DNA from: Arctopsyche grandis
Taxonomy: Eukaryota; Arthropoda; Insecta; Trichoptera; Hydropsychidae
DNA: 64,000 bases
Direction: 5' to 3'
NCBI RefSeq assembly: GCF_051622035.1
Contig: NC_135359.1
Span: forward strand, 33,881,501-33,945,500
Shown: one piece after another, positions 7,654 through 64,000 of the stretch
Layout: each line of letters starts with the position of its first letter
How positions within the stretch are numbered: the first letter of the stretch is position 1
Made by a program: the position numbers and the translations under genes
Notes under the pieces: generated by a model
Database searches by the model: none
Told to the model about the DNA's origin: nothing
The model's input: only the letters and a program-made list of their open reading frames with translations

Positions 7654-7893
7654 TGTGGCGGCTCGCTTATACGACATGGTCGAGTTTGGTTGCCTTCCTG
7701 CGAGTGGGAACCAACTCGGCTGGGTTCGGAGAGCCACTACTCACTCTACCTTTAGCTGTCATATAATAAGCACGTGCATTAACATGCCAGTCGTCTCATT
7801 CGTTCATCCTCCATAACTGGTGACCCCCGACATCGAGCCACGCAGCCTCGATCAATTTCAACATGCCAGTCGTCTCATTCGTTCATCCCCCAT
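7654..7893 (+). mobile_element. Collapsed mini-LTR retrotransposon copy
   Basis: A complete LTR (7654-7815, TGTGGCGG to CCTCCATA) is followed by the primer-binding and leader sequence ACTGGTGACCCCCGACATCG, as in the element at 18398. The leader then switches directly into the last ~33 bases of an LTR. The junction falls in AACATGCC, a motif present in both leader and LTR. I see no target-site duplication. This is a deletion derivative of the mini-LTR family. Confidence 0.8.
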
Positions 7894-8958
7894 TCCCCAA
7901 TTCGTTTATTAGCTAATACATAACTTTATGTATTAGCTAATAAACCCCTTGGGTCCATCGGCTATGCTGTCTTTCCCAAGTATTCTTAAACAAATAAAAA
8001 TAAATTTATTTTTGCTAGCTGTCCACGAATTCTTATAGGAATCGGTTCTTACTATGTTATCAACTTGTGTTTCATAACAGCCAAGATTTTTTTCAATTGC
8101 TCAAAAGTAGAGATAGTTCTTAAAATTAATTATTCTGCTCCAGAAAATTATCCTCACAACTACATACATTCCACTCGAGAAGGTGAATCACAACAAACCA
8201 CATGTATATGTGCCACGTTAACACCCACACACTACATGCATATGTAAGCAATATATAATAGTATCCGAAACGGCCGCAAATTTTTATTTTATCCACATCT
8301 TTATTGAACTGGTTATGCCAAATTTCGTAAATATCGGTAGATTTCGACTGATTTTTGTATTATAACATTTAAGTTAGAAAATTTTCTGCGCATTATTTTT
8401 AGTTGCCTTATTTTAAGAACTAGCTCTACGAACTAAAATTGTTTTAGCAACCAAAGCAGCACATCCGTGGTTATATATTAACGAAATAATCCGTTTACCG
8501 TAATATTTACCTCGACGATAATCATGGTTGTGAAAGACAGTGCGTGGGCATCTGTCAGTGGCATGGCGTGCCCAACTCACTATCTCTACCCGTCATATAG
8601 ATGGTAAACTATTTATTTGTATTTTTCATTCGATATGCATATAAATCGGCTCTTGCTTTTATAAAAATCATTATAACACACCGCTTAAGACGCCATCTAT
8701 TTAGATTTATTTCGAATTTTCCACAATTGCATATTTAACCTTAAACGTCATTCTCAACTGTGCAATGACTCCAAAATGTGAAACGTCACATGTAATCGTA
8801 AACCTCCGAGATCGCCCACGCCGTTTCCTCCGATTATACTTTAAATAAATAATTGTATGATATATTCGTAACCTGTAAATTTATTTTGCAGATACACGAA
8901 TAGAATAGTTGTCACTTTTGATACAACCCCGAGTGTTATTTAACATAAGTCCGTAGCG
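7894..8958. other. Intergenic repeats and OGFOD1 promoter region
   Basis: Sequence near 7935-7990 (CCTTGGG...CCCAAG, then AAATAAA units) resembles the tails at 54126 and 62318, probably non-LTR retrotransposon 3' ends. A unit at 8056-8125 recurs at 39468-39537. The last ~200 bases are the probable promoter and 5' UTR of the hydroxylase gene. No other coding exon is seen. Confidence 0.5.
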
Positions 8959-11614
8959 ATGGACGAGAACAACGTAAGTGGAGAAGCGCCTTCTGAACAA
9001 CTACCGAAGGCTACTAGAAGAGAAAGTACGTCTAGCATGGATGACTGTTCCGAAGTCGACACGTTGTGCACCGCAGATAAAACCAGCCTGGATCATTCCG
9101 AAAACGAGAATCACACTTCACCGCCGAAGGAGGAGAGTGTCGAAAATGAAGTATACAATATGGCTGAAGATGCGGAAAATATCGGTAATCTGGACCTCGA
9201 TGATGAGGAACCAAATGATAGAGCACCGAAACGCCCGATGGCGATTATAACGATAGACGACTCGGACAGTGACGATTCTTCCATATGCCATGTCGAATCA
9301 TATCAAGCTACAGCTTCGGAAGCGAAAAAATTAAGAAAAGGTAAGATGGTATATCTTTATTATGTAAATATTCTCATCGTACATATACTTTTTAACATTT
9401 GAAGGTTACTCATCGTCGGACCAGTCTTCATCGCCTTTGTCATCCAGTAGTGAAAGTGAGACCGAATGTGAACTTTCTGATATAATATACAGTATGCCGT
9501 CAAAGTTGTCATCGTGCGAAATAATTCCTAAAAAGACCCTGTCCTTGGATAAAATTAAGCTCAACGAGTGTTTCAACTCTAATCAGGTCAACGATGAATT
9601 CCTATCACACTGGTCGAAAGGGGAACCGTTCACCAGCAAAAACATAACACTGCACTCGGATCCATTTCAGATTTGCATAGTCGACGAGTTTTTGAACGAC
9701 GTAGATATAATAAACAATATAGTCGAAGATATGAATACGCTGGACTGGTACAGGAAAACGATGGACTTGTACGAGTTTCATAGGACGGCCGATCTGAGCG
9801 AAATATCGTGGCAACGGAATATCAAAGCCGTATACGAGTTGCTGAAGAACGATGTTATGAAATGGGTGGCTCAGATCACCAACAGTAACCTGACGCACGT
9901 GTCGGCTTCGTGTGCCTTGTATGGCCCCGGCGATCATCTTCTGCTGCACGACGATTTGCTCGAGGATAGAAAGATAGCCTTCATATTGTATTTGGCGCCT
10001 TGGAATCTACCCGATAATAGTCGAGAGCAGTCCCCCGACGGACAAGTTTGCCAAGATGTTACAAATGGTCCGTCTACTATTAATCTGTCTAGAGTAGACG
10101 ACGGTAATAGGAAAGAGGTACTTATTTTACGTAAATGTCTATTCGTTTTATTGGTTTGTAAAACATACATAATATATTTAAGCCATTGCACGCCAAAAAT
10201 ATGAAAAAAAATGCACATCCCGAAGTGCTCTTATTTGTCAATGTTAATGTTTATTAATATTTTTCAGAAAGGATGGTCAAAATCAATGGGAGGAGCGTTA
10301 GAATTTTTTGCATCGGATGATAAAATACAACCGACGTTTGCTACAAAGTCATTATTACCGTGTAATAACACATTTGCATTCTTCAAAGTCAACGAAAGAT
10401 CGTTTCACCAGGTTCACATATTTCATTATGCTAACTGACGACAATTTTAAATATAGATACATACCATTTCAAATCGTGTGTTATGTGTGCACATTTACGT
10501 TTACGTTTAATGAAGAAGATTAATTTTGAAAAATAAAAATTCGACCTACTTATTAATGTCAGTTTTTAAATTAGGTAGCCGAGGTTAAAACGTTTGACTT
10601 TCCGAGGTTGACTATCAATGGCTGGTTCCACGGACCGTCGGACGATAAGGAAGAAGAAGCAAAATCAGATGAAAAGCTACCAGAGGTCCATGCATGCCAT
10701 AGGCCGAACAGTGATGTGGTCTGTCATCAGATATCCATTGTAATAAATATGTGCACCGTTTATTTACTAACAGTGTTTTGAAATTAGTTTCAGCACGATC
10801 TCACCCAGTGGATCAATACCATGTACTTAACGCCGAAATATAAATATCAGATTCTGCAGCAGTTCGAGCAAACGCCCGAGACGAGTCTCAACAGATATTT
10901 TGTACAAAAACAATACGATGATGTTGTCAACGTTTTACGGAACGATAGTGAGTTGTTTTTTTTTTATTACATACGTATATTCTAAAATGGAAATTTTTAA
11001 ATGAATTGCGGCTTGCGATTTGTTTCCTTAGCTATTCCTTGGGAGAATTGTGGTCCAATAAATCTGAGAAATTACCAAATACTACCAATGAATAAAATAT
11101 CTGGCGAACATGCGACACCATTGAAAAATATCATCGATATAATGACCTCAAAACACTTTATCAATCTCCTGAAAGATTACACGGGATATCCTATCCTTTC
11201 CTATTGTAAGTTGGAAGTGCAAAAGTGGTCATCTGGAAATTATACAGTATGTGGTTTTTACATGTATGTACATGCATAGAAAATAAAATTCGACGCTGTT
11301 ATGAAATTTCACCGTTTATTTTATAGGTAATTCCGATGAAAGAGGAGTATTCAGTTGGTGAAATAGACGTGTCCATATATCTCGGCAGTTCTGAGAAACA
11401 GTCAAAAGGCGGCATCGTAACATATTTGAATCCCGAGGACGCCGACTCGGAGCCGTTCGTATCCATAGATCCGCAAAATAACGTGTTGAATATCGTGCAC
11501 TCGGATGCTGGCATCACCAAGTTCACTAAATACATAAGCAAGTTGAGTGTCAGTCGAGACGAACACCACTACGCCATCGTATGCAGTTATAGAAACACCG
11601 AACCGCCCAATTGA
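8959..11614 (+). CDS. OGFOD1: Prolyl 3-hydroxylase, OGFOD1/sudestada1 family
   Basis: Fe(II)/2-oxoglutarate dioxygenase (Tpa1/OGFOD1/sudestada1), which hydroxylates a proline of ribosomal protein uS12 (RPS23) and affects translation fidelity and stress granules. Seven exons: 8959-9340, 9405-10117, 10268-10411, 10575-10718, 10794-10947, 11032-11246 and 11327-11614, giving 679 residues. About 200 N-terminal residues are acidic and Ser-rich, longer than in the human protein. The catalytic domain starts near DPFQICIVDEFLNDVDIIN. Iron ligands are the H and D of LLLHDDLLED and the H of ERSFHQVAEV; the likely 2-oxoglutarate Arg is in PRLTINGWFHG. The C-terminal second double-stranded beta-helix domain is present (WINTMYL, LPMNKISGEHATPLK, GGIVTYLNPEDADSEPFVSI, IVHSDAGITKFTKYI). 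The donor of exon 4 is weak (GTG|GTCTGT); one codon either way is possible. AATAAA lies at 11752. Confidence 0.93.
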
Positions 11615-18012: not shown

Positions 18013-18397
18013 ACCAGTGTTCAGACTATGTCTGATGATCGGCTTTCGTGGCCTTACGACCCACGATTTGGCCGATATATTTTTGTGCTGGCCACCCTGA
18101 GACAGCGGTTGGCACACAAACTGACAGTTGTCGATAGCGGTTTGGCGCGTAAACACCCCGGTGTTTACGGGGCCCACCTCGCCACCGAAATCACCAGCTA
18201 AAGGCTGGTGAGGGTTGTGACGATACTTGGAGACCAGCTCCAGTATCCGTCCGGTGTGCACCAGAGGAAGCTTGGTCTGTCTTCGTCCAGAAGGCAGACA
18301 ACTGAGCTACGCGTGGCTAACCTCAAAAGGCACGCGTGGTTACTTTGTTTACTCCCCCCCCCCTGCTTGATCTCTGTATATATATATATATATATAT

Positions 18398-19489
18398 TGT
18401 GGCGGCTCACTTATACGACATGGTCGAGTTTGGTTGCCTTCCTGCGAGTGGGGACCAACCCGGCTGGGTTCGGAGAGCCGCTACTCACTCTGTCTTCAGC
18501 TGTCATATAATAAACACGTGCATCAACATGCCAGTCGTCTCATTCGTTCATCCTCCATACTGGTGACCCCCGACATCGAGCCACGCAGCCTCGATCAATT
18601 TCAACATGCCGCTCATCCCTGCCTCGCCGAGCCAGGCGGAGAAGCTACCCGCCGCGCCCCCATCGCCATCAACACGTGTCGCGGCCCGCGGGTGACAATA
18701 AACGAGCAGACACGGCTACCTACCTACCTACCTACCTACCTACCGACGTCCAGCCACAACGTCGATGACAGGTGCTTTAAAAAAATGGGGGAGCGAATGA
18801 GACGACGATCTTGACAGCTGGATGTGGAGTCATGCGCGATCCACTACACATAGAACGGTCATCCAGCACCACAAGACATACACCACCTCAGCACCATCAT
18901 CATCATCATCATCAAGGCCCCGTCCGTCCCCACGAGCGTCGTCACGCCGAGACGGGCGGTAGCGCTACAACACCTCCACGAGCCACAACGACTCACAGTC
19001 CAGCTCGGAGTATCATCAACCACATCGATGCCCCTGCCGCCCCCGCCGCCCCACCAACCGACATCAGCCTCGGAAGAGCGGCGCCGCCGCAGCATCGCAT
19101 CGCATCGGCGCGACCATCGGACCACCCACCGTCCTGCTCGCGACGTCACCGCCCTCGAATCTACCGACCATTCAGGGCGGTACACCTATGTACACAGCGG
19201 ATGACCCACGTCAACAATTTTTTTTCTCCCCACGTAATAATTTTTTTCTCTTTGTGTAACAATAATTTTTTTCTTTTGTAAAATTTGTTTCTTTGTAATT
19301 TTGGTATCGCTGATGCTGGGGGGGGAGTGATGTGGCGGCTCACTTATACGACATGGTCGAGTTTGGTTGCCTTCCTGCGAGTGGGGACCAACCCGGCTGG
19401 GTTCGGAGAGCCGCTACTCACTCTGTCTTCAGCTGTCATATAATAAACACGTGCATTAACATGCCAGTCGTCTCATTCGTTCATCCTCC

Positions 19490-19492
<3 letters not shown>
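18398..19492 (+). mobile_element. TRIM-like mini LTR retrotransposon, complete
   Basis: Two 162-bp LTRs (18398-18559 and 19331-19492), differing at about one base, flank a 771-base interior. The host duplication is ATAT, within a TA tract. Right after the 5' LTR is a primer-binding-like CTGGTGACCCCCGACATCG. Just before the 3' LTR is a purine tract, GGGGGGGGAGTGA. The interior has no protease, reverse transcriptase or integrase. It starts with a 25-codon ORF (ATG at 18606) like a Gag N terminus. Near 19170 it reads SGRYTYVHSG-stop, which may be the last codons of a Ty3/Gypsy polyprotein (inference). It is young by LTR identity and must have moved in trans. Confidence 0.88.

Positions 19493-19580
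<88 letters not shown>
19493..19580. repeat. (TA)n microsatellite
   Basis: About 85 bases of uninterrupted TA. It is the expanded TA tract of the BEL LTR on the right side of the mini-LTR insertion. Confidence 0.95.
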
Positions 19581-19584
<4 letters not shown>

Positions 19585-19851
19585 CAGTCACCATACAAAC
19601 AGAATTACAACCTGTTTTCATTATTATACAATTTCCCGCCTTGGTCCTGTATCACACTCACTTACGCACACTGTACGAGAGAGAGCGAGATATACATCGA
19701 GCCGAGCCGACATCAGCAGAGACCAGACCACCGACGACGAAGGAAGGCACCTTGAGGAAACCAGCCCCGCCCAAGCTTACCACTAGCTATTTCACAAAAC
19801 CGACTTCGGGGGTGCTCTCGAGTTGAACATCCCTGGAGTCTGTACAACCAG

Positions 19852-20554: not shown

Positions 20555-20735
20555 TGACCAAAAATTTATTTAAACAAAAACAAACAAACAACAGCCCGTC
20601 AAAAGATCAACATCAATAGCAATAAGTAATGTAAAAAAAAAATGAATAAACAATATAAACATATATGTATATAAACGAAAAGAAACAATACCGCAGTTAA
20701 ACGACGGTCTCGCACCGACGATAATAAATTACAAC

Positions 20736-21383
20736 TGTACAGACTCCAGGGATGTTCAACTCGAGAGCACCCCCGAAGTCGGTTTTGTGAGATAGCTAGT
20801 GGTAAGCTTGGGCGGGACTGGTTTCCTCACGGTGCCTTCCTTCGTCGTCGGTGGTCTGGTCTCTGCTGATGTCGGCTGCTCTGCTATGTCCCTTTCTCCT
20901 TCGTACAGTGTGCGTAAGTGAGTGTGATACAGGACAAAGGCGGGAAATTGTATAATAATGAAAACAGGTTGTAATTCTGTTTGTATGGTGACTGTATTTT
21001 ATATATATATATATACAGAGATCAAGCAGGGGGGACAGGGGGGGGGGGAATAACAAAGTAACCACGCGTGCCCTTTGAGGTTAGCCACGCGTAGCTCAGT
21101 TGTCTGCCTTCTGGACGAAGACAGACCAAGCTTCCTCTGGTGCACACCGGACGGATACTGGAGCTGGTCTCCAAGTATCGTCACAACCCTCACCAGCCTC
21201 TAGCTGGTGATTTCGGTGGCGAGGTGGGCCCCGTAAACACCGGGGTGTTAACGCGCCAAACCGCTATTGACAACTGTCAGTTTGTGTGCCAACCGCTGAC
21301 TCAGGGTGGCCAGCACAAAAATATATCGGCCAAATCGTGGGTCGTAAAGCCACGAAAGCTGATCATCAGACATAGTCTGAACA
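20736..21383 (-). mobile_element. BEL/Pao composite: 3' LTR (type A)
   Basis: A 648-bp LTR. On the minus strand it starts TGTTCAGACTATG and ends CTGGAGTCTGTACA. It is preceded in sense orientation by the polypurine tract AACGGGGGGAGTA. It is almost identical to the 5' LTR at 25758-26404. The outer edge carries ACAAC (20731-20735), matched by ACAAC at 26405-26409, so the whole 20736-26404 block behaves as one insertion. Confidence 0.9.
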
Positions 21384-22255
21384 TACTCCCCCCGTTGGAA
21401 TCCAGAGGATCGGATTCCAAAACAAATGAATTAATCAAGAGACTAATGAAGAATGACAAATGAGATAACAAAAGAACACAACAAAAAAGACATAAACAAT
21501 ACACAATCAGTAATCAAAACAAAGGTTCGTCCACCGTCAATCGTCCGGCTGTACATTAACAGCTGACTAAGCCCGCAAGAAACAACCAACAAGGTAAACA
21601 AACAACCAAACAAACAAACAAAAAACAACAAAAAACCAACACCAGTGCTTGGTAACAATATTGTTAAGCCGTTACATGTCCCGTATGCATTGATAGCTCC
21701 ATTACCAACACCAATCAACAAACAAGAGACAAAAAAAAACTAAATGGAAACACATTTAACTAAATCACAACACAAATTAAAGACGCCAACTTTAATGTGG
21801 GACGTTTTGAACGTTCGCCACACCGTTGCACAAATTCACTGAGTGCTGCTCGACTGGCAGTCGAGCTACTCGCCGGACTGCTCGCCGGTGTTGCTGATGG
21901 AGGAGTAGTAGGACCTACTCCTGTGCCCCTGTCTGCCAGGGGCCGCTGCTGCATGTGCTGGTGTGGTAGCACCCTCGCTCCGGGCTGATCGACCAGATCC
22001 TCCTGCTGTTGCGCAACTAGTGGTGCGCCAACTAGGAACTGGCCAGGAGTTATGGGAGCTGGGTTGGGAATGTCGAAAGATGTGAGGGTTAAAGGGCGCG
22101 GGTACATTGCGCTTCGGCAAGCGGAATCTTCGTACCGCGGAAATACGCGATTCGTCCAGGGGACGCGTAACTGTCTTGACTGGACGTCTCGCGCCAAAAC
22201 AAGATAACGGATCACGACCCGTTGTGTGATGGCAATTCCGAGAATCGCTTGAAAC
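21384..22255 (-). pseudogene. BEL/Pao pol 3' fragment and untranslated tail
   Basis: The minus-strand ORF at 22215-21760 contains PAPITPGQFLVGAPLVAQQQ, matching the conserved block after the BEL/Pao integrase (usually TPGHFLIG-PL). The rest is Pro/Ser-rich. The polypurine tract follows, next to the LTR at 21383. Upstream it stops at GAAAC|TGTACAG, directly on the middle LTR: no gag, protease, reverse transcriptase or primer-binding site remains. Confidence 0.75.
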
Positions 22256-22893
22256 TGTACAGACTCCAGGGATGTTCAACTCGAGAGCACCCCGGAAGTC
22301 GGTTTTCTGAGATAGCTAGTGGTAAGCTTGGGCGGGGCTGGTTTCCTCAAGGTGCCTTCCTTCGTCGTCGGTGGTCTGGTCTCTGCTGATGTCGGCTGCT
22401 CTGCTATGTCCCTTTCTCCTTCGTAATGTGCGTGGGATGCGTGATGTGGAAAAAGGGAGGAAATTGTATAATAATAAAAACAGGTTGTAATTCTGTTTGT
22501 ATGGTGACTGTATTTTATATATGTATAAATACAGAGAATAAGCAGGGGGGGGGGGAGTCCGTCGTGAAATTAGCGCGCACGTGTTCGAGAGGTTATGATA
22601 ACTTCACTCCTCACGTGACTACGTGATCTGACTTCGACGAAGAAAGACCAGGATTTCCTCACTACTCACCGGACGTATACTGAAGCTGTACTTCCAGTAT
22701 CGTCTGCCGATCCAGGCTGAGCTGATCGGGACTCGGTGGTGGGAACAAACTCGGTAGCGAACAGAGATGTTCACTCGACCGAAGCGGAAAACGAATAGGA
22801 GGCGGGGACGCGCGCTCGGCGCCGATCTCCCTCCAAAACGGCTCCTTTGGTCGTAACGCCACGAAAGCTGACCATGAAGACTTGGTCGGAACA
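22256..22893 (-). mobile_element. BEL/Pao composite: internal LTR (type B)
   Basis: A 638-bp LTR. Its left half (R-U5 in sense) matches type A closely, while its right half (U3, about 22560-22893) is very different. The ends are conserved (TGTTCCG... and ...CTGTACA) and a polypurine tract AACGGGGGGAGTA abuts it. It thus marks a different subfamily or a U3 replacement. Confidence 0.82.
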
Positions 22894-23330
22894 TACTCCC
22901 CCCGTTGGAAGTCAGAGGATCGAATTCCAAAACAAATAAGAATTAATGGTGCACAAGCGACTAATGAAATACACAAAAACCAAGCAAATAAGCAAAAAAA
23001 TAACAAAAAAACAACACAACAAATAACCCAGTCAGCAAACAAAATAACATTAGTCCATCGTCAATTTCCCATCCTACATAAGCAGCTGACTAAGCCGGCA
23101 AGAAACAAACAAAAAATAGACAAACAAACAACCAAAACACCAACAAATAACCAACACCAATGCTAGGTAACAATATTGTTCAATCGTTATATGTCCCAAT
23201 CTATCCTGATAGCTCTATTACAAAGCACCAATCAAACCAACAAGAGAAGCATAAAAGAAAAGCAACTCAAAAACTTAAGTTAAAACACATAAACTGAATC
23301 CACAACACAGATACAAACAACGCGCCAACT

Positions 23331-25610
23331 TTAATGTGGGACGTTATGAACGTTCGCCACACCGTTGCACAAATTCACTGAGTGCTGCTCGACTGGCAGT
23401 CGAGCTACTCGCCGGACTGCTCGCTTGGTGTTGCTGATGGAGGAGTAGTAGGACCTACTCCTGTGCCCCTGTCTGCCAGGGGCCGCTGCTGCATGTGCTG
23501 GTGCGGTAGCACCCTCGCTCCGGGTTGATCGACCAGATCCTCCTGCTGTTGCGCAACTAGTGGTGCGCCAACTAGGAACTGGCCAGGAGTTATGGGAGCT
23601 GGGTTGGGAAGGTCGAAAGATGTGAGGGTTAAAGGGCGCGGGTACATTGCGCTTCGGCAAGCGGAATCTTAACTGTCTTGGACGCGTAACTGTCTTGACT
23701 GGACGTCTCGCGCCAAACCAAGATAACGGATCACGACCCGTTGTGTGATGGCAATTCCGAGAATCGCTTGAAACTGTGGGCGCTTCTAGAGAGCCGCCCA
23801 ATATCCAGCCGAAAGCTGTATTCATCATCGCGATGCGTCCTCCTCTGTCACCGCGTGACTTGGAGGGAACTAAAATGGTACGTTTGCCATTGCGTAACAT
23901 CGCATGATAGGCGTCGCTGCCTATCACCATATCCACTGTACCGGGAATATCGAATGACGGATCGGCAAGGGGGAGATGAAGCGGCAAATGGCTCCGAATC
24001 TCGGACACGTTGCGCGATGGAAGTTGATTCGCGATCTCGGGCATGATTGCGCAATCGAGATCAACACTGGAGCCCTGATTGGGGATGCGCGGTAGAATTC
24101 GAATTACCGCGCCACTAGTAATGGACGTCCTATTTGAACCTATTCCTACCAGGTTGACGTCCATCCTTTTCGACTTTAAGGCGAGTCGCCTTCTTAAGTC
24201 TTCAGAGATGAGGTTGAGTTCGGAGCCGTTATCTAACAATGCTCGAACCCTGTGCGAACGCCCATCTCCGCCGCGAACTTGTACTTCCACAGTGGATAAC
24301 AGGACAGTTCGGGCGTGAGAAGGCGATACGCGTCTCACCGAGTGTAAAACCAACGATGATTTTACGGGTTTGGCGTTCTCTGATTTCTTGGGGCTCCGAT
24401 AATGTTTGGCCTTATTTGAAGGCGAAGTTTGGTATGGAGTTGAGTCATGTAACATGGTGTGATGGGCATGACCGCATTTGAAGCATCTCTGCTTTGTTTG
24501 GCACGCGTGAACTATGTGCCCTGGCCTCAAGCAGTTGAGACATAGTCGACGTTTTATGGCGTTCGACCTACGCTCATCACCGCTCATTTGGCGGAATGAT
24601 GGACAGGCTAGCAGAGAATGACTTCCGCTGCAACTGATGCAGGAGGGGCGTTCCCTCCTCACATGCAGAACTGCTGCCTTCGGATTCGTAATGGTTCTTG
24701 GTCGAGGATTCGACTCGCCTTTTAAGACGAAGTCAGCATTTGCCATCGATTGGCACTGAAGCGTCAGAAATTCAATGAGTTTGTGGAATGTGCACTCCTC
24801 ATGTTTTGGCGCTTGAAGCTCCCATTGTCGAACCGTGTATCGATCGAGCTTCCTAGTGATGCACATGACCAAAATGTCGTCCCAAGTGTCGACCGGAACG
24901 CCTAAGTTGGCCAGTGCACGGACGTGCATGTTAAAATCGTCTATGCAGCGATGCAAACTTGCGTAACTATTGGACGCAATTTGTTCCGCGTCCAATATTG
25001 CGCGAATGTGGGACTGAACAACAATTTTTTTATTGTTGTAGCGCTGCTCCAGAATGGACCAAGCGCGGGAGAAGGAATCATCAGATAACTCTAAGCCACT
25101 GACTACGCGATTGGGTTCTCCTTTTAGGACTGCCAACAAGTATTGGAAACGGGCGAGTTGAGAAGTTTCGCCGGCCATAGCGACCAAGAAGCGTTGTGAG
25201 AAAAGGGGCCAATTTTGGACGTTGCCTTCGAAGGTGGGCAACTCCAAACGGGGCAATTTTATTGCCGAATTTGATTGCGATACAGCGGAAATCGTGACGG
25301 CAGCGCCACCTACCGGCGACGCGCTCAGTTGCAGCTCCCGCAATCTGAGCATTTCCATACATCGTTCGAGGGCGATTAAGTATTCCGTCTCGAACTCGTC
25401 AATGACGGACTCGGAGGCCCGAGCCTCCGCTTCGTCCAGCTCGTCAATCTGAGCTTGGACCGATTCGAAATCAGACAACAGAGGTTTAATTATCTCGAGT
25501 CTGATTTTGAGCATGGAAATACTCAGATCCCCCTCCAAATGGTTCGCATTTCTCGTTAACCGAGCGCGAATGCTTTTCCGCGTATTCCGAAGTGCTTCCA
25601 TTTTGGACAC
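23331..25610 (-). pseudogene. BEL/Pao gag-protease with pol deleted
   Basis: A 759-codon minus-strand ORF. About residues 1-320 are the BEL/Pao Gag region (DUF1759-like: PTFEGNVQNWPLFSQRF ... ILDAEQIASNSYASLHRCID). Zinc knuckles CISCSGSHSLLAC, CLNCLRPGHIVHAC and CFKCGHAHH follow. A retropepsin-like aspartic protease has ALLDNGSELNLIS (DNG where DSG/DTG is usual). The ORF reaches GWILGGSLEAP and then jumps to the 3' end of pol. Reverse transcriptase, RNase H and most of integrase are missing. After the jump the ORF reads the integrase-tail DNA in the wrong frame; the right frame is at 23647-23405 (ITPGQFLVGAPL). The element is therefore defective for replication by itself. The ATG is 150 bases inside the 5' LTR. 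Confidence 0.85.
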
Positions 25611-25738
25611 GACAAAAAATAAACAATGGACACGGGAAAAGAAACAAAATGGCGACCAAAAATCACAACAACAACAGAAAAATGCTAATTACGACCAACC
25701 TAGATTAGACGACGTTGGAAGACCAGCTCTAAAGACAT

Positions 25739-25757
25739 ACGGAATCGAAGGACCAAA
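25739..25757 (-). other. BEL/Pao primer-binding site
   Basis: On the minus strand, directly after the 5' LTR end CTGTACA, the sequence is TTTGGTCCTTCGATTCC. The TGGTCCTTCGA core is where a tRNA primer would be expected to bind in BEL/Pao elements. I did not identify the tRNA. Confidence 0.6.
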
Positions 25758-26404
25758 TGTACAGACTCCAGGGATGTTCAACTCGAGAGCACCCCCGAAG
25801 TCGGTTTTGTGAGATAGCTAGTGGTAAGCTTGGGCGGGACTGGTTTCCTCACGGTGCCTTCCTTCGTCGTCGGTGGTCTGGTCTCTGCTGATGTCGGCTG
25901 CTCTGCTATGTCCCTTTCTCCTTCGTACAGTGTGCGTAAGTGAGTGTGATACAGGACAAAGGCGGGAAATTGTATAATAATGAAAACAGGTTGTAATTCT
26001 GTTTGTATGGTGACTGTATTTTATATATATATATATACAGAGATCAAGTAGGGGGGACAGGGGGGGGGGAATAACAAAGTAACCACGCGTGCCCTTTGAG
26101 GTTAGCCACGCGTAGCTCAGTTGTCTGCCTTCTGGACGAAGACAGACCAAGCTTCCTCTGGTGCACACCGGACGGATACTGGAGCTGGTCTCCAAGTATC
26201 GTCACAACCCTCACCAGCCTCTAGCTGGTGATTTCGGTGGCGAGGTGGGCCCCGTAAACACCGGGGTGTTAACGCGCCAAACCGCTATTGACAACTGTCA
26301 GTTTGTGTGCCAACCGCTGACTCAGGGTGGCCAGCACAAAAATATATCGGCCAAATCGTGGGTCGTAAAGCCACGAAAGCCGATCATCAGACATAGTCTG
26401 AACA
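25758..26404 (-). mobile_element. BEL/Pao composite: 5' LTR (type A)
   Basis: A 647-bp LTR nearly identical to 20736-21383, bounded by ACAAC at 26405-26409. It has a (TA)n/TATACAGAG tract in mid-LTR and a G-run (GGGGGGGGG) beside it. It drives the gag-protease ORF leftward. Confidence 0.9.
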
Positions 26405-26891: not shown

Positions 26892-27051
26892 TATAGGGGA
26901 TGAACGAATGAGACGACTGGCATGTTAACGCACGTGTTTTATTTATGACAGCTGACGGCAGAGTGAGTAGCTAGCTCCGAACACAATCGAGTTGGTCCCC
27001 ACTTGCAGGAAGGTGACCAAACTCGACCATGTCGTATAGCGAGCCGCCACA
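26892..27051 (-). mobile_element. Solo mini-LTR with ATAC duplication
   Basis: A 160-bp copy of the mini-LTR in minus orientation (TATAGGGGATGAACG to GAGCCGCCACA), flanked by ATAC at 26888-26891 and 27052-27055. It is more diverged than the copies at 33335 and 33713. Confidence 0.92.
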
Positions 27052-28494: not shown

Positions 28495-29137
28495 CGACAA
28501 TTGGTGCAAGTCCAAAAGGTTCAACGACAAAATGTACCCGAAAATTAGTGCACTGACAAAATGTATCCGCGACAAAATGTCCACGGAAATAATGTTTTAA
28601 TAAAATTTTCCTATTTTAAAGGAAAAAGTAACTTTTTATTGTATTATATTTATCGATGTATGGTACTTTTTATCGTATAGATCGCGGGCGTTATTAAATT
28701 AGTATAAATGACAGGTGTTATTTATACTAATTTAATAACGCCCTACGCTTAAAAAGTATTTTTTTTTCAATTTAAATAAGTAAATATTGGTTACGACTAA
28801 AAACCCCTAACATTTAAACTAATTCAATGACATCTTAAAATGATATTCAATGAGTCACAATAACATTCGCTTAAAATGTAATTGTTCAATTTAAATAAGA
28901 ATATGTTGGTGCGGTTGAGAACACCTGTAATTTATACTAATTTAATAACATCCGCGATCTATACGATAAAAAGTAACATATACATCGATAAATATAATAC
29001 AATAAAAAGTTACTTTTTCCATTAAAATAGGAAAATTTAGGATTTTTGAACATTTTGTCGCATGAACATTATTTCCGTGGACATTTTGTCGCGGGTACAT
29101 TTTGTCGTTGAACCTTTTGGACTTGCACCAATTGTCG
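28495..29137. mobile_element. Long foldback MITE
   Basis: About 640 bases whose two ends are long inverted repeats of each other. The left arm (28495-28710) starts CGACAATTGGTGCAAGTCC; the right arm (28926-29137) ends in its complement. The arms contain repeated GACAAAATGT motifs. A perfect 24-bp palindrome with a 10-base loop lies at 28686-28743, and one arm of it appears again near 28929. There is no coding capacity. Confidence 0.75.
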
Positions 29138-33182: not shown

Positions 33183-33670
33183 AGCTGTATTTCCCCCTTT
33201 CGCTCGGTATTTGTAATATAAACCGCTTAAACATGACTAAACTAATAGTAAACATTTTATTAAATTTATATTTGAACACTCATTTATATGTCACGAACAA
33301 ACAAACATATAATAAGTCTCTTATAAATAATTATATTATGGAGGATGAACGAATGAGACGACTGGCATGTTAATGCACGTGTTTATTATATGACAGCTAA
33401 AGGCAGAGTGAGTAGTGGCTCTCCGAACCCAGCCGAGTTGGTTCCCACTCGCAGGAAGACAACCAAACTCGACCATGTCGTATAAGCGAGCCGCCACAAT
33501 ATGTATACCAGAATCCGGCGCCCGTGCCCCTTAGGGCTTCGCTCCCAGCGCAAAGGCGGCTTCGCCCTTGGTGCCTTTGCCGCCGGGGACTTCGAATCGA
33601 ATTATTTGTTACCCAATAAACGAAGGATTCCTATATACAAAGTCTCTTTCGAAATTATATATTTGATTTA
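33183..33670 (+). repeat. GC-cassette repeat, copy 1 (split by a solo LTR)
   Basis: It begins CTGTATTTCCCCCTTTCGCTCGG, followed by AATATAAACCGCTTAAACATG. After the solo LTR (33335-33498) it continues with a GC-rich block (GCCCCTTAGGGCTTCGCTCC) and ends CAAAGTCTCTTTCGAAATTATATA. It has the same organisation as the copies at 42205 and 55606. Confidence 0.75.
33335..33498 (-). mobile_element. Solo mini-LTR with ATAT duplication
   Basis: A 164-bp copy in minus orientation, TATGGAGGATGAACG to GCGAGCCGCCACA, flanked by ATAT (33331-33334 and 33499-33502). It is inserted in the GC-cassette repeat. Confidence 0.93.
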
Positions 33671-33712: not shown

Positions 33713-33874
33713 TATGGAGGATGAACGAATGAGACGACTGGCATGTTAATGCACGTGTTTATTATATGACAGCTAAAGGCAGCGTGAGTAGTGGCTCTCC
33801 GAACCCAGCCGAGTTGGTCCCCACTCGCAGGAAGGCAACCAAACTCGACCATGTCGTATAAGCGAGCCGCCACA
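33713..33874 (-). mobile_element. Solo mini-LTR with ATGT duplication
   Basis: A 162-bp copy in minus orientation flanked by ATGT (33709-33712 and 33875-33878). It is very similar to the copy 215 bases to its left. Confidence 0.94.
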
Positions 33875-34625: not shown

Positions 34626-34787
34626 TATGGGGGATGAACGAATGAGACGACTGGCATGTTGATGCACGTGTTTTATTTATGACAGCTGAAGGCAGAGTGA
34701 GGTAGCAAACTCCGAGCACAATCGAGTTGGTCCCCCACTCGCAGGAAGGTGACTAAACTCGAACATGTCGTATAGCGAGCCGCCACA
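34626..34787 (-). mobile_element. Solo mini-LTR with GTGC duplication
   Basis: A 162-bp copy in minus orientation flanked by GTGC (34622-34625 and 34788-34791). It lies about 130 bases upstream of the ATG of the DSN1-like gene. Confidence 0.94.
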
Positions 34788-34918: not shown

Positions 34919-37155
34919 ATGCTTCCAAGGAGCACACGTAGATACGCAAATAAATCTGGGCGATGGAGTAGAGGTAATTTCACCGACTGCTACTGCTGCC
35001 TACATAAATGAATTTTATTTCATGGAAGTGGATTTACAGACGATTTATACCAGTAAAAGAGGTGAATTTTTCTCCCTTGAAAAAATGTAAAATATATTGA
35101 AATAGGATTTAAAAAAAAACTGTTTGACTACCTAGGTGCTAAGTATATAAATGTATAGATGGTGAGGTAAGTAATCACCTATTTAATTAACTAGTTGTTT
35201 CGCCCGGCTTAGCTCAGTATTTTTAATATTAACAGCTTAAACATGGCGAATCTAATAGTAAATATTAATTTGTTTTTTTAATAAATTTATTTGAATCGAA
35301 AAAATAAATATATCGAATCGAAACGTCGTCATAGAAAGTTTGATTTGTTTTCGATGTTACCAACAAACCTTACATATATACATAGTGACAAAGTCTCTTT
35401 CGAAATTATATATTAGATGTGTGCGTTGAAAATCGGTGACAAAAATGGTAAACGGACTACTAGTCATATGTAAACCAGTCACAGGACAACCGGTCACGCT
35501 AGATCGGTCACACGTGATCACCCGTCACACTAAAACTGGTCACACCATAAAATCGATCACGATAAAACTGATTGACCGAATTTAGGGTGTGACCAGTTTT
35601 CTCGTGACCAGTTTTAGTGTGACGGGTGATCACGTGTGACCGATCTAGAGCGACCGGTTCACATTTGACTAGTAATCACCGAACCGACAAAAATGATATA
35701 GAAACAAATATCGATATCGTTGTGGCCAAAACCGTCAGTCGTTGTTAAGTTTGTTGACGGTTAGGTCGCACTGTCCTGTCGCACCGTCATGTGCGAAGAG
35801 TTTTCTCCTCCTTTGCATTCCCGCCGTCGAAGATCGTCCCTCTTTTGCAGACGAGACTCGTTTGGTAACATTTTTCTTATTTGCCCAAAATTATGTTTTT
35901 CTATGCATGCAAAATTAATCGACGTACATATGTACCATACATACATACCTACATAACTTAGAATTTGAATGCAAGACTTCAACCAGGGTAAATGGCTAAA
36001 TGAGCGTCTCTGTGGGTGAAAAACACCCTAAGGGGTAATGATTTTATGGAATTATATTTCCCAAATATATACGATGTAACTATTTAATTTCTAAAATGAA
36101 ACATAAAGAATATACACACTAATGCACCTTGCACACTAATGGCTAGTGCCATTTTTAATTATCATTCCTCTACACACTGACACGGATGTCGTTCTCATTT
36201 TTGAAAGCAGGCCCGAACTCATTTTCTGCAATAGTGGCGCATCCAATTTTTTTCAAGAGAAATGGGTGATGACATTTTGTGCTTCTACATACACATGTGC
36301 CCATAATTACGAAAGTGGTCCAAGTCGAGAAAAAAAATTATTTTTAATCAATTACATATCACAATGTAACCGATATTAAACAATAAAATCGACTTTCTTT
36401 TCCTGACCACTCACAACCATGGGCACATACATATGTAGTTCGACCCAGCACTCAATATTATTTTAGAAAATGAGTTCTCAACCTGCCATCAGAAATGGAA
36501 ATACTACATATCTATGGACATATGTTTTTTTATAATGTAATTAAACATACATATGTATCTACATAAAGTTTTTCTCTGATCATATTTTTTTACAGTACCG
36601 GATCGATCTGGAAATGAAGATAAAAACAGTATAGAAGATGATCATAAACGGTATCTTATATTCTTTATTAAAAATATTTCATTTCGGTTATACATGTACA
36701 TATACATATATGTATGTAATTGATAACTTACAGATACTTGGAGAAACTTAAAAATGAATCCGACGCATGGAAACAATTATACAAATATAGAAAGAGCAAA
36801 ATTCAAGATGTCGAACGGTTTGTAAAATGTAATTTTATATAAAATAACGTAATAGGATAAATGACTAAGTAATACTATTTTCAGGAAATTTAAAGAATCT
36901 GAAAAATTACAGATATTAGATGACAACACTTTGAATTCAATTTTGTCCAATGATATAAAGGAGTTCCTTCGAAACAAACCTGAAGTCGATGAGATTGTTA
37001 GAGAATCAATTGAACTATGTGAGGAATTCGAAATCACTAAAGAACTATACAATAACCTCTTGAGGAGTAATGAAAGAATCACAGAATATGTCAGAAAAGG
37101 CACCGACTGCATCATCGAAAGCATTTGTAATGACAGCTTGTCGACAAATATTTGA
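34919..37155 (+). CDS. Short coiled-coil protein, DSN1 (Mis13)-like
   Basis: Four exons, 34919-34973, 36596-36650, 36734-36817 and 36885-37155, join in frame to 154 residues. The three right-hand exons are secure: consensus splice sites and continuous phases. The first is my choice, because its ATG, phase and donor (AGAG|GTAATT) fit. The N terminus is basic (STRRYANKSGRWSR), then comes an acidic stretch (GNEDKNSIEDDHK) and a helical coiled coil. The order WKQL...RKSKIQDVER, then FLRNKPEVDEIV, ITKELYNNLLRSNERITEY and a final CIIES resembles the C-terminal half of kinetochore Mis12-complex subunit DSN1. A basic RR-x-S-like N terminus is also a DSN1 feature (Aurora B site). The DSN1 head domain would be missing. 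AATAAA lies at 37217, 60 bases after the stop. The gene is likely real; the DSN1 assignment is inference. Confidence 0.5.
35191..35415 (+). repeat. GC-cassette repeat family, copy lacking the GC block
   Basis: It starts CTAGTTGTTTCGCCCGGCTT, continues AACAGCTTAAACATGGCGAATC and ends CAAAGTCTCTTTCGAAATTATATA. It has the same flanking modules as 42205 and 55606, but the GC-rich centre is absent. Confidence 0.65.
35448..35685. mobile_element. Foldback MITE in the DSN1-like gene intron
   Basis: The left arm contains GATCGGTCACACGTGATCACCCGTCACACTA-type sequence and the right arm its reverse complement, over about 90 bases each. The arms contain repeated GTCACAC/GGTCAC motifs. The direct repeat GACAAAAATG flanks the element (35438-35447 and 35686-35695) and may be its target duplication. 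Confidence 0.7.
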
Positions 37156-50147: not shown

Positions 50148-50209
50148 ATATAATACAATTTCAAATTACAAATTACTCACCTAATTTGTAATTTGAAATT
50201 GTATTATAT
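50148..50209. repeat. Perfect 28-bp hairpin
   Basis: Two 28-base AT-rich arms (starting ATATAATACAATTTCAAATT) are exact reverse complements around the 6-base loop CTCACC. Confidence 0.85.
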
Positions 50210-63429: not shown

Positions 63430-64000
63430 AATGATTGCAAAATTTAAAATATGATTAAATTTTGACTAGAGTAACCAGCCTTTTTTTATACAAAAAATTT
63501 TTCAAGTTGGAAATAAAATCTAAAAATATTCCCATCGTTTTTATGCTATAAATGATAATTTTTTGAACTAGTGTAACCAACCATTTTATACAACAAATTT
63601 TTTAAAGTGAAAAAAAAAACTAACAATACTGCCATCATCTTTATGATATATTATTGCAAAATTCAAAATACTATAAATTTTGATTAGGGTAACTAGCCTT
63701 TTTTATGCAAAAAAAAAATTTTGTAGTGAGAAAAAAATATAAAAATATTCCCATCACCTCTATGCTATAAATTATTACAAAATTTGAAATAAAATTATTT
63801 TTTTTAACTAGGGTAACCAACCTTGTAATACAACAAAATTTTTAAGTGTGAAAAAAAACCTTATAAATAATTATTATATATTGGAATATTTTTAGATTTT
63901 TTCTCACATTAAAAAATTTGTTGTATAAAAAGGCCGGTTACCCTAGTCAAAATTTATAGTACTTATTTTTAATTTGCAATAATTTATAGCATAGAGATGA
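63430..64000. repeat. ~110-bp tandem repeat, last unit inverted
   Basis: Units built on TAGGGTAACCAGCC / TTTTTATACAAAAAATTTT / AAAAATATTCCCATCATCTTTATGCTATAAAT repeat about four times to 63858. From about 63880 the same motifs occur in reverse complement (TTGTTGTATAAAAAGGCCGGTTACCCTAGTC). The array continues past the window edge. Confidence 0.75.

Follow-up and report, generated by a model that had tools for sequence, protein, structure and literature searches.

A young, gene-less TRIM family in Arctopsyche grandis and chimeric copies that point to a Ty3/gypsy element as its likely helper

Structure and surroundings of the element

The window, by which we mean the whole 64-kb stretch of DNA that was analysed, contains a miniature LTR retrotransposon (TRIM) and elements of BEL/Pao type. 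A BEL/Pao-type solo LTR (18018–19846, plus strand; TGTTCAG...CTGTACA, with 5-bp flanks ACCAG/ACCAG by eye) is interrupted by the TRIM. A BEL/Pao-type element occupies 20732–26404 on the minus strand, with two LTRs of about 652 bp (99.4% identity), 5-bp flanks GTTGT by eye, a DUF1759 ORF at 23331–25610, and more duplicated stretches at 21340–23777. An ORF at 9437–10204 (plus strand) matches the 2OG-Fe(II) oxygenase family PF13661 and is likely an exon of a host gene. Imperfect palindromes, about 69–93% self-complementary, were found at 7896–7953, 28686–28743, 35474–35673, 50148–50209, and 63635–64000, and are possibly remnants of foldback transposons.

The TRIM itself is 1095 bp long (18398–19492). 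Our analysis confirmed what a preliminary description of this DNA had reported, namely two 162-bp LTRs with about one difference (99.4% identity, one mismatch) around 771 bp of interior. The LTR begins with TGTGGCG, and its last seven bases are CTCCATA. Chance origin of the pair is excluded, because seven such LTRs are present in the window and 1,687 first-look candidates in the genome, of which the best 40 were scored. The primer-binding-like site (PBS) and polypurine tract (PPT) of that description were likewise found, at the start (18560) and end (19330) of the interior, and both recur in other copies. In the fetched loci, the PBS TGGTGACCCCCGACA was present in all 28 junctions read, preceded by C in 27 and by A in one, and the PPT junction AGTGA/TGTGGC in all 31 junctions read. 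The ten bases 18561–18570 appear complementary to the 3′ end of tRNA-Trp; one extra C, which the canonical tRNA-Trp site does not have, comes next.

Table 1. Parts of the TRIM and its other LTR copies in the window.
Feature	Positions	Strand	Remarks
5′ LTR	18398..18559	+	162 bp; TGTGGCGG...CCTCCATA; internal AATAAA
3′ LTR	19331..19492	+	162 bp; 1 difference from 5′ LTR
Primer-binding site CTGGTGACCCCCGAC	18560..18574	+	Directly after 5′ LTR
Leader (internal bases 1–226)	18560..18785	+	Also in chimeric long element L063
Low-substitution core	18791..19215	+	More stable fold than its shuffles
G-rich polypurine tract GGGGGGGGAGTGA	19318..19330	+	Abuts 3′ LTR
Left ATAT of nominal 4-bp duplication	18394..18397		Right partner 19493–19496; within (AT)n
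Solo LTR, diverged subfamily (86%)	26892..27051	-	GTAT/GTAT
Solo LTR (95%)	33337..33498	-	ATAT/ATAT
Solo LTR (96%)	33713..33874	-	ACAT/ACAT
Solo LTR, diverged subfamily (87%)	34626..34787	-	GCAC/GCAC
Rearranged TRIM copy	7654..7893	+	LTR, then an additional A and 51 bp of leader (100%)

No Pfam family was found at E≤5 in five sense-strand pieces of the interior, in agreement with the earlier statement that it encodes no enzymes. On the same result, a sense-strand coding remnant was rejected, and the N-terminal ORF and polyprotein-end codons proposed before are unsupported. The longest interior ORF (132–206 aa) shifts among 29 copies, and gaps of many lengths were seen.

The TRIM lies in an (AT)n tract inside the BEL/Pao-type solo LTR. 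The 4-bp duplication at 18394/19493 is uninformative alone, because it is inside this tract. The empty site is represented by the two BEL/Pao LTR copies at 20732–21383 and 25754–26404 (minus strand), which agree with it in sequence but contain a short TA tract only, and no TRIM. Exact 4-bp duplications also surround 23 of 26 further complete short copies in the fetched loci and all four solo LTRs of the window. Insertion of the TRIM is shown by these empty sister LTRs and by the duplications around the other copies. The element's own ATAT, claimed previously as a duplication, is indistinct from the (AT)n, but the other copies compensate for this.

Besides the pair, the window has four solo LTRs and a rearranged copy, which makes seven TRIM LTRs in all, five of them outside any complete element. 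In the rearranged copy, the leader runs into the terminal ~36 bp of a second LTR, the two sharing TCAACATGCC at the joint, and no 4-bp duplication was seen around the copy. This copy is perhaps a product of template switching.

Copies across the genome and the low-substitution core

The genome searched is made up of 189 contigs with a total of 475,669,232 bases. In each genome-wide copy search, at most the 40 best candidates were scored, and the candidate totals are rough lower bounds. The LTR query gave at least 1,687 first-look candidates; among its best 40 matches, beyond the pair of the window, six LTR pairs were 882–959 bases apart and one was 241 bases apart. At least 447 candidates were obtained with the internal query 18611–18780 (best 40 scored), and at least 664 with the internal query 18940–19215 (276 bp), for which 39 of the 40 scored were identical, the window copy included.

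We fetched 48 loci (L005–L052), of which two were the window itself and five were duplicates. After these were set aside, the remaining 41 loci contained 26 further complete short copies of 1050–1121 bp, 14 full LTRs without adjoining interior (12 of them with exact 4-bp duplications), and five full LTRs adjoining partial interiors. Loci L013–L032 are the first 20 of the 40 listed copies of the 18940–19215 query and hence were picked for core identity, while L033–L052 are 20 of the 25 LTR-query matches without a listed partner. The LTR in L034 has neither a partner LTR nor a duplication. In L033 (3987–5062; C13:20615153–20616228), two TRIM 3′ parts lie in opposite orientation with their interiors face to face.

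In 25 complete copies that could be compared free of gaps, the two LTRs differ at 0–3 of 162 positions each, at 21 sites overall. This divergence of about 0.5% corresponds to roughly half a million years at a published ant rate (PMC3532108), a figure which is indicative only, as the sample was selected for similarity and the rate is that of ants. Among viral contigs, the TRIM LTR and leader patterns had no match each; the leader pattern matched four prokaryote records in the genome contig collection.

The TRIM is thus a high-copy, recently active family. The earlier proposals that it is TRIM-like and recently moved are supported, and it is not a unique deletion among autonomous copies, the finding that would have refuted them. 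The family looks young and numerous, so that insertion polymorphism would be easy to test.

Variation within the interior was measured on nine complete copies picked by LTR alone, because the other sample is biased to core identity. In these copies, diversity was 0.008–0.010 in the core (18791–19215), against 0.045–0.051 in 18621–18790, 0.036 in 19216–19330, and 0.017 in the first 61 bases. The core therefore has about 4–6 times fewer substitutions than the two regions beside it. Its predicted fold was also more stable than that of every one of 100 shuffles (z −3.4), and those of 18560–18790 (z 0.5) and of the LTR (z 0.18) were no more stable than theirs. It is possible that the core carries an RNA signal; a role in packaging is a guess.

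Chimeric copies and a candidate helper

A search of the genome for the DUF7041 gag gave 66 matches in at least three groups by score. The second group consists of 16 matches, and these are the same 16 as the gag copies of a low-copy Ty3/gypsy element, here called A. All 39 candidates for a 3301-bp query from the end of gag to integrase were scored, and 13 carry the whole query at 99–100%. Twelve of these are bounded on each side by an A-type LTR; the thirteenth, L063, is mixed. With the A-type LTR as query (42 candidates, best 40 scored), such LTRs were found at both ends in 12 of the 15 gag copies other than L063. The A-type LTR is 201 bp long, begins with TGTGGCA, and differs in sequence from the 162-bp TRIM LTR. 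Common to the TRIM and A are the LTR ends TGTGGC...TCCATA, AATAAA, and the PBS core. Their PPTs also lie in a similar context, A being the one element to which the TRIM was compared in this respect. The alignment of the two LTRs beats all 500 shuffles, with many gaps. By match coordinates, A also differs from the TRIM in having about 15 bases between its LTR and the shared body.

One match of the second gag group, at C1:30513352, is located just downstream of a match to the TRIM leader. In the 7-kb locus L063, a TRIM-type LTR (98.1%) comes first, and after it a PBS and leader that align with internal bases 1–226 of the TRIM (93.8%). Separate ORFs then match DUF7041 gag, RVP (just under the Pfam cut-off), RVT_1, RNase H, Integrase_H2C2, and rve. 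DUF7041, found here together with RVT_1 and integrase domains, may mark a CsRn1-type gag. The right end is a 201-bp A-type LTR, and ATAT is present on both outer sides, which is weak evidence, ATAT being common. TRIM internal bases 227–771 have only short, mostly repeat-like matches in L063, the PPT excepted. A query of L063:102–900 gave 1,332 candidates, of which the best 40 were scored. It matched in full length in L063 alone; 15 other gag copies matched from base 378, 386, or 399 onward (97–99%), and 24 TRIM copies matched only as far as base 377–384. The TRIM and A matches in the leader of L063 thus overlap by AAAACAA (query 378–384). Derivation of the TRIM from a long element by deletion, by way of this leader, was dropped, the leader being found among gag copies in L063 alone.

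A TRIM-type 5′ LTR was identified in four of the 16 gag copies (94–100% to the L063 query). The three other than L063, known by match coordinates, have left LTRs at C9:24250065 (97%), C13:18706613 on the minus strand (99%), and C11:1511802 (94%), and are called C9, C13, and C11 below. In all three, the TRIM match stops at query base 172–173, just past the common PBS core TGGTGACCCC; the leader of A starts three bases past the end of the TRIM match in C9 and C11. By these coordinates, the TRIM-type LTR of each leads directly into the PBS core and then the A leader, and the TRIM leader is missing. The overlap at the junction extends over about 11 bp in these three and over 7 bp in L063. An A-type 3′ LTR was found in two of the four chimeras, L063 and C13; in C13 it lies at C13:18703893, 2.7 kb from the left end, with no pol match between. 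Among the best 40 of 42 and 40 of 43 candidates, no A-type 3′ end turned up for C9 or C11; C9 also lacked a pol match. C11 is the most diverged chimera (94% LTR, 97% gag), with partial pol stretches (97%) 7 kb and 17 kb downstream.

Since a new copy of an LTR retrotransposon normally has identical LTRs, two templates are required for one that carries a TRIM LTR at one end and an A LTR at the other. Judging from the chimeras, the TRIM and A were probably reverse-transcribed together, and A, with its DUF7041 gag, protease, RT, RNase H, and integrase, is likely the helper of the TRIM. We consider it quite probable that the gene-less TRIM replicates as its own short form, is mobilised by A proteins, and has its RNA used together with that of A in one particle. 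In such a process, TRIM RNA would be packaged, reverse-transcribed, and integrated by the proteins of A. The plus-strand strong-stop DNA of the TRIM (whole LTR and PBS) could pair with the PBS end of the A minus strand, and this intermolecular plus-strand transfer would leave the TRIM LTR on the left, joined at the PBS to the body of A, and the A LTR on the right. C13 would fit such a transfer at both ends, and C9 and C11 at the left end; L063 would require one additional switch, in the leader at the AAAACAA overlap. If the nucleic acids of both elements enter one particle, the proteins of A can presumably mobilise the TRIM. For HIV-1, a case has been made that second-strand transfer can be intermolecular (PMC5651808).

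The preliminary description regarded the TRIM as a deletion derivative of a Ty3/Gypsy element. From the sequences compared, it is not a simple deletion of helper A, since the best helper candidate has different LTRs (201 versus 162 bp) and the additional 15 or so bases behind its LTR, and L063 is a fusion. A related possibility is that the TRIM derives by deletion from an autonomous subfamily bearing the TRIM-type LTR, with C9, C11, and C13 being its remnants rather than fusions. These three do join the TRIM-type LTR to the PBS core and A leader with the TRIM leader absent, and the divergence of C11 and its pol stretches downstream are like those of an old remnant. However, A-type LTRs terminate C13 and L063, and TRIM bases 227–771 are hardly represented in L063 apart from the PPT. 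A full-length element with matching LTRs, the expected parent, was found in part only: four gag copies have the TRIM 5′ LTR, but not one of the 13 full copies is bounded by TRIM LTRs on both sides. We regard this derivation as doubtful, though it deserves serious consideration.

Chromosomal exchange is a further explanation, in which already integrated copies would have recombined or undergone gene conversion to give the fusions, which would then be uninformative on a common particle. LTR repeats do recombine, as the window LTRs outside complete elements and the rearranged copies at 7654–7893 and in L033 illustrate. Against it, the overlaps at the junctions are as short as stated above, and L063 retains matching ATAT flanks. 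Such exchange appears distinctly improbable as the source of the chimeras.

A need not be the sole helper, because another DUF7041 gypsy group has the canonical tRNA-Trp PBS. In this group, represented by L053, L054, L059, and L060, the LTRs begin with TGTGGCGACCCC, and up to 28 gag matches have similar scores; the canonical PBS was present in the four plus-strand loci examined (of 10). The TRIM might be mobilised by this best-scoring group or by a further tRNA-Trp gypsy, with the A chimeras being rare accidents, and the TGTGGCG start of its LTRs would agree with this. The fusions were found with A, but A was the only group searched for fusions, which makes this a weak point. Mobilisation by another gypsy seems unlikely on the whole.

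Within the preferred reading of joint reverse transcription with A, it is conceivable, at somewhat less than an even chance, that the TRIM and its helper repeatedly swap LTRs during reverse transcription, the parasite placing its promoter LTR on the helper. For wheat elements, template switching has been proposed as a route of LTR transfer (PMC9744471). Loci L033–L052, 20 stretches of 9951 bases each around LTRs, showed no TRIM LTR pair bounding a long element and no match to the gag-pol body of L063.

The passages available on the ant TRIM state that no helper was found (PMC3532108), and those of the wheat study that a TRIM helper is hard to determine without experiments (PMC9744471). Here, sequence alone suffices to name a candidate helper, through copies in which the left end of the TRIM is fused to the coding body of a gypsy element; this fusion test is applicable to other TRIM families. 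If the repeated LTR exchange does take place, the fused insertions would document physically by which element a TRIM is mobilised, and would be direct traces of LTR transfer by template switching for one. Judged by titles and the beginnings of abstracts, no report of fused TRIM-helper insertions in an animal was found in the literature searched; no paper with the PBS letters of this TRIM was found either.

Comparison with known systems

TRIMs were said in the preliminary description to be less documented in insects. This is partly right, but they are in print for ants (PMC3532108), honey bee (PMC4028053), bumblebees (PMC4414376), and chalcid wasps, as Helenus (PMC10886601). In the passages of these and the following sources drawn on here, the length of TRIMs is given as "<4 kb, typically around 0.5-1 kb" (PMC4558846), which our 1095 bp fits, or as "less than 1000 bp" (PMC3532108), which ours exceeds by 95 bp; a 1192-bp homologue was accepted in the latter.

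PbTRIM of Pogonomyrmex barbatus, as far as these passages describe it (PMC3532108), is similar to our element in its LTRs of 152–184 bp, non-coding interior, PBS, and PPT, in 4-bp duplications that are often ATAT, and in its many solo LTRs, clusters, and subfamilies. It differs in its length of 480–781 bp and in its PBS, given as tRNA-Leu, whereas ours appears to fit tRNA-Trp. Homology between the two was judged from two published primers alone. The PbTRIM LTR forward primer aligns in the U5 of our LTR, with 69 of 5,000 shuffled primers and 56 of 5,000 random window stretches being as good; the second primer is no better than chance (3,239 and 2,389 of 5,000, respectively).

The hymenopteran TRIMs Helenus and TRIMp3, thought to be mobilised by gypsy elements in the parts of the account considered (PMC10886601), also have 4-bp duplications and are in some cases tRNA-Trp-primed. 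They carry a tRNA-derived stretch in the LTR, whereas Rfam and ARAGORN detected none in ours. That our TRIM is of the tRNA-promoter (Helenus) type of chalcid wasps would agree with the tRNA-Trp-primed families and 4-bp duplications published for Helenus (PMC10886601), but there was no tRNA among the five Rfam matches at E≤5 in 18300–19600, ARAGORN detected none in the window, and the LTR folds no better than its shuffles. This type was rejected as hardly credible.

The CsRn1 clade of Ty3/gypsy (PwRn1/AgCR), according to the portions cited (PMC2582038; PMC3601003), has a tRNA-Trp PBS and 4-bp duplications. The TRIM shares the duplications, and its PBS appears to agree exactly with tRNA-Trp over 10 nt and then has the extra C. 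The CsRn1 5′ LTR motif TGTGGYG (PMC3601003) is matched by TGTGGCG of the TRIM, whereas TGTGGCA of A misses the last position; CTCCATA of both fits the 3′ LTR motif MSYYAMA at five of seven positions by eye. CsRn1 elements are full-length and coding, unlike the gene-less TRIM with its one extra C in the PBS.

A parallel to the relationship proposed here between the TRIM and A is Ta-TRIM of Echinococcus with its candidate helper "lennie" (PMC4558846). Ta-TRIM differs from our element in its tRNA-Leu PBS, and the passages drawn on do not mention fused TRIM-helper insertions. It has mostly 4-bp duplications, as ours does, and "lennie", an autonomous candidate like A, was matched to its TRIM through the LTR ends, the PBS, and the length of the duplications.
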